Source of the DNA: an uncultured Tateyamaria sp.
GTDB taxonomy: Bacteria > Pseudomonadota > Alphaproteobacteria > Rhodobacterales > Rhodobacteraceae
Assembly (NCBI RefSeq): GCF_947496075.1
Contig: NZ_CANMBJ010000002.1
Location: 1,116,001-1,180,000 of the forward strand
Length of the DNA: 64,000 nucleotides
Direction of reading: 5' to 3'
The position numbers and the translations under genes are program-made. Within the stretch, counting starts at the first letter, position 1. Every line of letters begins with the position of its first letter. The notes below the pieces were generated by a model that had not been told where the DNA came from, ran no database searches, and saw nothing but the letters and a program-made list of their open reading frames with translations. Shown here piece by piece: positions 57,236 to 59,194 of the stretch.

Positions 57236-57265
57236 GTCAATTCCGCTCTTGTTGCATTTGCCTGA

Positions 57266-57294
57266 CTGCTAACACGGACCAAAGGCGGTGTCAG
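57266..57294 (-). promoter_or_regulatory. probable promoter of the IalB-family gene
   Basis: On the minus strand, CTGACA (57294-57289), a 17-base spacer and TAGCAG (57271-57266). The predicted start would be about 25 bases before the ATG. Confidence 0.35.
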
Positions 57295-57332
57295 GGGTAA
57301 AGGGCAAAGTTTTCGTGACCGGCATTAAACAG

Positions 57333-57400
57333 CAAAAAAGGGGACCCCAAAGCCCCCTTTTCCAATCTCTTCTCTCCCCGTCGGACTGGCCGACTTATGC
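57333..57400 (-). ncRNA. candidate small RNA 1 (purine-rich) or leader
   Basis: The minus strand from about 57400 holds a small hairpin (GTCGG-CCAGT-CCGAC), a purine-rich stretch (GGGGAGAGAAGAGATTGG) and a terminator stem AAAAGGGG/CCCCTTTT (57336-57361) running into T. The promoter lies at 57406-57434. It is a short unit of about 66 nt. Read-through would reach the IalB-family gene, so it may instead be an attenuated leader. Confidence 0.5.
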
Positions 57401-57405
57401 GCGGG

Positions 57406-57434
57406 AAGTTACGAGAGCGCCGCGCAACGGTCAA
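57406..57434 (-). promoter_or_regulatory. promoter of candidate small RNA 1
   Basis: On the minus strand, TTGACC (57434-57429), exactly 17 bases, then TAACTT (57411-57406): close to the sigma-70 consensus and the best promoter match I found in this window. Confidence 0.6.
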
Positions 57435-57474
57435 CAGTGAATGTCGGAAAATAAAAAGACCGTGAAATCAATAT

Positions 57475-57492
57475 CTAAACCGTTCGGTTTAG
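57475..57492. promoter_or_regulatory. 18-bp perfect palindrome, TetR-type operator candidate
   Basis: CTAAACCGTTCGGTTTAG is fully symmetric. The AAACCG-N2-CGGTTT form resembles operators of TetR-family repressors. It lies between the terminator of small RNA 2 and the promoter of small RNA 1. Confidence 0.5.
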
Positions 57493-57497
57493 TTGAG

Positions 57498-57580
57498 AAA
57501 AAAAGGCCGCGCACGAAGCGCGGCCCAGTCTGACAGGGAGGAAGTGTTCAGCGCCGGGAGGACATCTCGACGAGAACAAA
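57498..57580 (-). ncRNA. candidate small RNA 2, CcsR-like with CCUCC loops
   Basis: On the minus strand three hairpins follow one another. Hairpin 1 (57572-57552): CGTCG/CGGCG stem with loop AGATGTCCTCC. Hairpin 2 (57551-57530): a CTGA(A)CA/TGTCAG stem with loop CTTCCTCCC. Hairpin 3 (57525-57505): GGCCGCGC/GCGCGGCC stem followed by seven T. Anti-Shine-Dalgarno loops ahead of a terminator are the hallmark of Rhodobacter CcsR RNAs. The 5' end is estimated; no promoter is convincing. Confidence 0.55.
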
Positions 57581-57652
57581 AACACTATGGCACCCAAGTG
57601 TTAACTTTGTATGGTCGGCGCGGCAGGCCCAATGGACAAAAGGTTAACAGCA

Positions 57653-59194
57653 ATGAGTGACAGTCTTTTTATCGGTGGAGGCGGCGTAGACTATGCTGAG
57701 AAGCAAGGGCTGACGCTGAAATACGCCAATCGACATGGGCTTGTTGCCGGCGCAACTGGAACGGGCAAGACCGTCACGCTCCAGATTTTGGCCGAAGGTT
57801 TCTCGAATGCGGGGGTTCCGGTGTTTCTGTCAGATGTCAAAGGTGATTTGTCGGGGCTGGCCAAGTCAGGCACAGCTGATCACAAGCTGCATGGTCCTTT
57901 CACGGAGCGGGCTGAGAAGATCGGTTTCACCGACTACACGTACCATGCCTGCCCGGTGACGTTCTGGGACATGTTCGGTCAACAAGGTCACCCGGTACGT
58001 ACAACGGTGTCCGAGATGGGGCCGTTGTTGCTGGCGCAGTTGCTTGAATTGACCGAAGCGCAAGAGGGCATTCTGAACATTGCCTTCCGTCTTGCAGACG
58101 AAGAAGGCATGCCGCTCTTGGACCTGAAAGACCTTCAGGCGCTTCTGGTTTGGGTCGGCGAGAACGCCAAGGACCTCAGCCTGCGCTATGGCAATGTGTC
58201 GTCCCAATCCATTGGGGCGATCCAGAGGCGCTTGCTGGTGCTGGAGAACCAGGGGGCGAGCCAATTGTTCGGTGAGCCAGCGTTGGAACTGTCAGACCTG
58301 ATGCGCACGGACGCTTCCGGCAAGGGGATGGTGAACATTCTTGCCGCGGATCAGTTGATGGGGGCGCCGAAACTCTATGCCACCTTCCTGCTATGGCTGC
58401 TGTCCGAGCTGTTCGAGGAACTGCCCGAAGTGGGTGACCCCGACAAACCTAAGCTCGTGTTCTTCTTTGACGAAGCGCATCTGCTGTTTGAGGACGCGCC
58501 CAAAGCGTTGGTCGACAAGGTGGAACAGGTGGCGCGACTGATCCGGTCCAAGGGGGTTGGTGTGTATTTCATCACCCAGAACCCTGCTGATGTACCCGAG
58601 GACATCCTTGGCCAATTGGGCAATCGCTTTCAACATGCGTTGCGCGCCTTTACCGCGAAGGACCGCAAGGAGTTGCGGATGGCGGCAGAAACCTACCGTG
58701 AAAACCCAAGGTTTGAGACCGAAGAGGCCATTCGCGAGGTCGGGGTGGGTGAGGCCGTGACCTCGATGCTGCAAAAGAAGGGGGTTCCGGGGATTGTCGA
58801 ACGCACGTTGATCCGGCCGCCGTCATCGCAACTTGGACCGATTACCAATGGTGAGCGCGCTGCCCATCTGGCGGCCAGCGATATGGCAGGCAAGTATGAT
58901 GAGCCGATGGACCGTGAATCCGCCTTTGAAATTCTCAAGGCACGTGCGGATACGGCAGCCAAAGAGGCGGCCGACGCAGAGGAGAAGGCTGAAGAGCTGG
59001 AACCTGTCCTGCGTGAGTTCAATGCGGGTCGCCGGTACTCTGGCGCGCGGGTTACACGCTCAACATCGCGGTCCACACGCCGGGGGGCCAGTTTTGGCGA
59101 GGCGATGACCAAGATGGTTGTGAAGGAGCTGACCGGCACCACGGGGCGGCGCATGGTCCGCGGCATTTTGGGTGGCCTCTTCAAAGGGCGCTAG
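57653..59194 (+). CDS. HerA-like ATPase (DUF853, YjgR type)
   Basis: A 513-residue P-loop ATPase of the HerA/FtsK superfamily. Walker A is GATGTGKT at 33-40, [11 protein letters not shown] follows, Walker B is [12 protein letters not shown], and an arginine-finger-like segment [14 protein letters not shown] comes later. The C-terminal region is a charged helix ([19 protein letters not shown]) and a basic tail. YjgR-type proteins have no settled role. The ATG at 57653 is preferred over one 42 bases upstream because it begins the conserved SLFIGGG. Confidence 0.9.

Follow-up and report, generated by a model that had tools for sequence, protein, structure and literature searches.

Small RNAs (sRNAs) of the alphaproteobacterial anti-Shine-Dalgarno (aSD) class differ in build and in origin. 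SorX of Rhodobacter sphaeroides consists of a hairpin, an unpaired CCUCCCUGU-NN-GACU linker and a GC-rich terminator, and the title of the paper describing it presents it as derived from a 3' UTR. SorY is described as having a gene of its own, from which it is directly transcribed (PMC8307010). MmgR (mmgR/suhB) of Sinorhizobium meliloti is described as a free-standing, 77-nt trans-sRNA with a UUUCCUCCCU linker ahead of its terminator (PMC7143759). The CcsR1-4, CIN1 and cuckoo RNAs carry aSD motifs and form a stress-linked class (PMC10253847); CcsR is present in four copies and is co-transcribed with the DUF1127 gene ccaF1. Members of the NfeR1/alpha-r14 family have three hairpins, each with CCUCCUCCC, and keep their aSD motifs while the sequences of their stems diverge, and NfeR1 is reported to silence ntrB via these motifs (PMC10746234). 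As a family precedent for one sRNA acting on another, StsR, itself placed under the control of RpoHI/RpoHII, is described as targeting the sRNA UpsM in R. sphaeroides (PMC8307010).

The window analysed here, a stretch of 64,000 nt from an uncultured Tateyamaria sp., carries a small-RNA gene, RNA1, on its minus strand at about 57577-57498. On one side it is flanked by an IalB gene and on the other by a divergently oriented gene for a HerA-like ATPase. Its product is very probably a small regulatory RNA able to mask ribosome-binding sites. We hold with good confidence that RNA1 stands free, acts in trans, has been inherited vertically and belongs to the alphaproteobacterial aSD class, with a build like that of SorX, SorY and MmgR. 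A second conserved small-RNA gene, RNA2, lies some 100 nt further down this strand and was overlooked in the initial annotation of this region.

Fold and upstream region of RNA1

RNA1 is predicted to be ~80 nt long. Its 5' hairpin is followed by CUUCCUCCCUGUCAGACU, which remains unpaired, and then by a GC-rich terminator that carries seven U. TCCTCC and CTTCCTCCC both lie on the minus strand within 57577-57498, and these motifs, the 8-bp GC stem and the seven T are all present as first described. Hairpin 1 (57546..57577, minus strand), with GUUC..GAAC at its base and GUCCUCCC in its loop, is delimited by the predicted fold, by RNAalifold and by cross-genus covariation. The unpaired linker ACUUCCUCCCUGUCAGACU (57527..57545, minus strand), identified by conservation, is the putative aSD seed region. 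The terminator (57498..57526, minus strand), identified by fold and covariation, has a GGCCGCGC/GCGCGGCC stem of 8 bp, all GC, to which a ninth, outer G-U pair could be added, followed by the seven T. The 5' end is placed provisionally at about 57577, where transcription would start. A CCUCC-type motif in an unpaired region ahead of a terminator, the general mark of aSD sRNAs, is thus present in RNA1.

The predicted folding energy of the 86-nt minus strand is -31.9 kcal/mol, compared with a mean of -21.5 kcal/mol for dinucleotide shuffles (z = -3.76; 1 of 200 shuffles at least as good). In the minimum-energy fold, GAAC (57549-57546) pairs with GUUC (57577-57574) and closes hairpin 1, and CUUCCUCCCUGUCAGACU stays unpaired. 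The same hairpin, linker and terminator make up the RNAalifold consensus of 19 orthologs from the genus. The initial annotation had proposed two directly abutting hairpins within a three-hairpin layout, and here the data point elsewhere: the 5' arm of its second hairpin is the segment that closes hairpin 1 in the minimum-energy fold, and that second hairpin (CTG.ACA/TGTCAG) loses one pair in 17 of 18 distinct genus orthologs. It is nearly private to this sequence: of 65 loci, three have an arm resembling CTG(A)ACA. Between RNA1 and RNA2 there is also an inverted repeat, CTAAACCGAACGGTTTAG (57475-57492, minus strand), with a 7-bp stem, which by eye is only partly kept in the closest relatives within the genus.

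Upstream of RNA1 is a conserved block (57584..57615, minus strand) that reads ATACA-N3-TTAACA-N7-GCCA-TAG-T in this genome. Its consensus, ATACA-N3-TTAACC-N7-GCCA-N3-T, is kept over the 61 of 65 loci that are long enough, the count being anchored on a fuzzy GCCA-type motif, so that the conservation of GCCA and of the T that follows is partly by construction. The block includes a -10-like CATAGT at 57589-57584, six nt before the base of the hairpin. TTGACA is absent from it, and a sigma-70 consensus scan of 57240-57660 returned no site for either RNA1 or RNA2. On the other strand the block reads TATGGT at a fitting distance from the start of the ATPase gene and may therefore serve both divergent genes; because it overlaps the likely promoter of the ATPase gene, its strand is ambiguous.

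Conservation and covariation of RNA1

A 261-base search located RNA1 in 19 of 20 genomes of the genus, our own included. At all 19 loci both flanking genes are present, namely the downstream neighbour, which encodes an IalB-domain protein (PF06776; 56591..57235, minus strand), and the divergent neighbour, which encodes the HerA-like ATPase (PF05872; 57653..59194, plus strand), and TTCCTCCCTGTCAGACT is exact in all 19 orthologs. Model R1, which was built from these orthologs, matches 276 of 295 genomes of the family, a count that includes SorX- and SorY-type paralogs. The family search with R1 returned 30 loci, two of them from the genus; all of the other 28 have the IalB gene and 27 also have the ATPase gene.

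A sample selected independently of the RNA gives a similar picture. It consists of 80 named loci of the ATPase protein, 48 of which were taken, by title and similarity, as Rhodobacterales or near. Of these 48, 37 carry RNA1 and 45 carry IalB, and none of the 37 RNA1 loci lacks IalB. Model R1 recovers the same 37, and its best match in the other 32 loci has an E value of 0.34. RNA1 is missing from 11 of the 48 loci, in eight of which the rest of the gap is kept; the loci L114, L116 and L117, also among the 48, lack both RNAs as well as IalB and may fall outside the order.

The two parts of RNA1 upstream of the terminator are conserved to very different degrees. Over a set of 65 loci, mean identity between genera is 89% for the 18-nt linker and 31% for the 44-nt 5' part; this set comprises the 83 of 127 loci with CCTCCCTG within 5 errors of the linker, minus 18 further copies from the genus, and invariance of the seed within it is by construction. 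Among the true matches of the model, a count free of the CCTCCCTG filter but made with a model that itself contains the seed, CCTCCCTG (linker CCUCCCUG) occurs in 63 of 63, whereas UCCUC or CCUCC occurs in the 5' part of only 31. We therefore take the linker as the general seed and the loop motif as lineage-specific. Comparison shows an ultraconserved linker, UUCCUCCCUGUCAGACU, unpaired in the predicted fold, at a fixed location between the IalB and HerA-like genes.

Within the genus the stem varies little, with one double change, and the covariation, weak taken alone, could not decide the matter; other genera were therefore added. In an alignment of 64 model matches, 95.6% of cells are paired, compared with 73.4% after shuffling, and double changes occur at 17 of 17 pairs, although this alignment was fitted to the model, leans to its structure and includes one spurious antisense row (L064). 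Its covariation score is 0.596, as against 0.201 for shuffled alignments; none of 500 shuffles equals it, and slid versions score no higher than 0.098. An alignment-free control was run on the 65 loci by exchanging the halves of the hairpin among them. The exchange costs 413 kcal/mol on average, and the real sum was reached in none of 20000 permutations. Single loci are less sharp: a locus's own half is the best partner in 13 of 65 cases and is within the four best in 32 of 65.

By this comparison, the 5' hairpin is shown to have been rewritten across genera, yet its predicted pairing has been kept, and the terminator covaries as well. The initial annotation had allowed that the stems might prove to be neither conserved nor covarying in relatives; this was checked and did not come true. 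Its broader proposal, an sRNA of the alphaproteobacterial aSD type, is supported by the conservation and covariation in relatives.

RNA1 among described aSD RNAs

A search of the whole window against Rfam at gathering scores returned two tRNAs only. For RNA1 itself the best Rfam match was SorX (RF02784; 45.1 bits, E = 8e-10), just under the gathering cut-off of 46.6, so automatic annotation would miss RNA1; among seven genus orthologs scanned, one passed this cut-off (L031, 50.7 bits). The mmgR/suhB model (RF00519) gave 34.7 bits, under its cut-off of 41, and SorY (RF02651) gave 29.5 bits, under its cut-off of 111. With this ranking, in which all matches are below the cut-offs, CcsR is displaced as the nearest relative, the position it had been given at first.

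RNA1 resembles SorX in its hairpin, unpaired linker and GC-rich terminator, and differs from it in the linker (GUCAGACU in RNA1, GUUGGACU in SorX) and in standing free beside the divergent ATPase gene. SorY has the linker type of RNA1 but a different locus, and the same is true of a second RNA of this genome, L002. MmgR is likewise free-standing with its linker ahead of the terminator, but belongs to another locus and lineage. RNA1 shares with NfeR1 the retention of aSD motifs over diverging stems, but has one hairpin and an unpaired seed in place of three hairpins. RNA1 had been called unusual because no DUF1127 gene precedes it; since SorY and MmgR are free-standing, we do not regard this arrangement as unusual.

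The genome's own SorX (L001; 62.8 bits) is downstream of an OmpR-type gene. L002 (G000:C2:950460-950544), which follows a LysR-type gene, is a SorX/SorY-like RNA and scores 56.3 bits, above the SorX cut-off. CCTCCCTGTYRGACT occurs exactly at three places in the genome, L001, L002 and RNA1, and RNA1 is therefore assigned to a known class as its third member here, one that stands free. With one mismatch the pattern occurs at three more places, and a reversed control pattern gives one match. The 11 loci related to L002 (L032-L042, one of which is the same place) all adjoin a LysR-type gene. The literature searched yielded no description of RNA1 or RNA2, though either may already be in print.

By analogy with described members of the class, RNA1 would be stabilised by its hairpin and terminator, probably together with Hfq. 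Its CCUCCC seed would pair with the ribosome-binding sites of several mRNAs, and such pairing would block their translation and favour their decay.

We consider it very unlikely that RNA1 is instead a CcsR-type (CIN1, 'cuckoo') RNA that has lost its former DUF1127 partner gene. This copy does carry aSD motifs in both the hairpin loop and the linker, and a weak match to the SorX model after the DUF1127 gene at C2:1041389-1041487 suggests that CIN1-like loci may exist in the genome. However, the second hairpin is unconserved, RNA1 is single-copy with no DUF1127 gene at the locus, its sequence is closest to SorX, and the loop motif is specific to some lineages (31 of 63 model matches). The genome has three DUF1127 genes, all on the same contig and more than 130 kb from RNA1. 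The weak match just mentioned (L012; 18.6 bits, E = 0.14), which closely follows the DUF1127 gene L188, has CUCUUCCUU ahead of a terminator and is possibly a CIN1-like locus of this genome. Even less probable is that the region holds just a conserved divergent promoter and the terminator of a longer transcript, with no separate regulatory RNA: the strongly conserved upstream block may function for the ATPase gene, and a terminator alone would yield a conserved stem, but the covarying 5' hairpin and the linker would be left unexplained, and the terminator has no upstream gene on its strand to serve, the neighbour being divergent.

RNA2 as a candidate decoy

RNA2 (57333..57398, minus strand; match of model R2 at 57334-57402) has a GUCGG/CCGAC hairpin, GGGGAG, a spacer and a terminator, in that order. 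It is preceded by a promoter-like TTGACC-N17-TAACTT (57406..57434, minus strand; TARCGT in most relatives), which is followed by GUCGGCCAGUCCGACGGGGAG, the spacer and the terminator. Its core, GTCGGCCAGTCCGACGGGGAG (57374..57394, minus strand), is nearly complementary to the linkers of RNA1, SorX and the SorY-like RNA.

The pattern AGTCGGCC-N-GTCCGAC-N-GGGAG with up to three mismatches has one match in the window and none in 100 shuffles, and without mismatch it occurs once in the genome, at this locus. With one mismatch it is found in 95 of 149 family genomes; in a class-wide sample, which held four genomes of the family, it was found in 2 of 289, both from the family. Model R2 was built from 63 relatives, after 17 of 80 candidate segments had been dropped by eye (seven that were not RNA2 and ten with a misplaced 3' end), and matches 251 of 295 family genomes. 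No Rfam family matches RNA2 at cut-off. In the ATPase sample RNA2 is present in 45 of 48 loci, eight of them without RNA1, and the 32 loci brought in by RNA2 itself, in which one locus is counted twice (L159 = L198), all have IalB and in 29 cases also the ATPase gene. The hairpin covaries modestly, with one pair occurring as UA in 54 sequences, UG in six and CG in three.

RNA2 may be an RNA already catalogued in R. sphaeroides (StsR, RSs2978 or another), the comparison having been made by description rather than by sequence; one paper names RSs2978 and gives no location for it. Identity with UpsM was rejected, since UpsM is described as lying upstream of mraZ (PMC5089854) and the RNA2 pattern occurs in this genome at the present locus only. 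RNA2 also differs from StsR, as described, in having a TTGAC-type promoter-like sequence and a core that faces the aSD linker.

We tentatively propose that the two genes form a tandem sRNA/anti-sRNA pair, in which RNA2 mimics a ribosome-binding site (GUCCGAC-R-GGGAG) and captures RNA1, SorX and the SorY-like RNA. RNA2, transcribed from its own TTGAC-type promoter, would then set how much linker-type aSD RNA is free. The proposal arises because GUCCGACGGGGAG of RNA2 is nearly the reverse complement of all three linkers; it pairs with CUCCCUGUCAGAC of the RNA1 linker with one A-C mismatch and one G-U pair. For the 32-nt core, with folding costs counted, the predicted binding energy is -23.3 kcal/mol with RNA1 (matched by 0 of 300 shuffled cores), -19.2 kcal/mol with SorX (7 of 300) and -19.2 kcal/mol with the SorY-like RNA (4 of 300). 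The conserved complementarity of RNA2 to a regulatory RNA exceeds chance, as expected of a sponge. When 3196 stretches of the window were ranked, two over RNA1 came first after RNA2's own complement. This core scan replaced a duplex-energy scan with the whole of RNA2, which was uninformative because the G-rich terminator pairs widely.

Variation within the core is largely compatible with pairing. Among the matches listed, the first free position of the pattern takes all four bases and the second takes A and G only, both of which pair with the linker U. In 68 of 73 cores, sought with a pattern allowing one substitution, all variants pair or wobble with the consensus linker, and the remaining five lose the last pair. 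Of the 276 family genomes that have R1-type RNAs, 248 also carry RNA2, compared with 3 of the 19 that do not (Fisher p = 2.9e-12), an association confounded by kinship, by the incompleteness of genomes and by strict filters. RNA2's own hairpin takes up part of the pairing region. RNA2 does not track variation in the linker of the neighbouring RNA1: L076, L077, L093 and other loci combine a shortened linker with a standard RNA2.

This independence from the RNA1 linker favours another reading, possible though short of probable, in which RNA2 is not a decoy and instead forms the terminated leader (attenuator) of ialB, in the way described for UpsM and the dcw cluster (PMC5089854). In 45 of 48 loci RNA2 lies ahead of ialB and has the same orientation, it remains at the eight loci without RNA1, and RNAalifold pairs RGGG with the 3' arm of the terminator, a possible antiterminator. 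Against a leader, the linkers of three unlinked RNAs give the best fit to the core, and RNA2 co-occurs with linker-type RNAs, an association confounded by kinship.

Across a large bacterial family RNA1 has kept a single location, and RNA2 is the more surprising part of the locus. The decoy proposal, if true, would explain why conservation of the linkers of these aSD RNAs extends over about 15 nt, far past the CCUCC seed. If RNA2 is such a decoy, the anti-Shine-Dalgarno RNAs of this family would be subject to a built-in brake that is near-universal.
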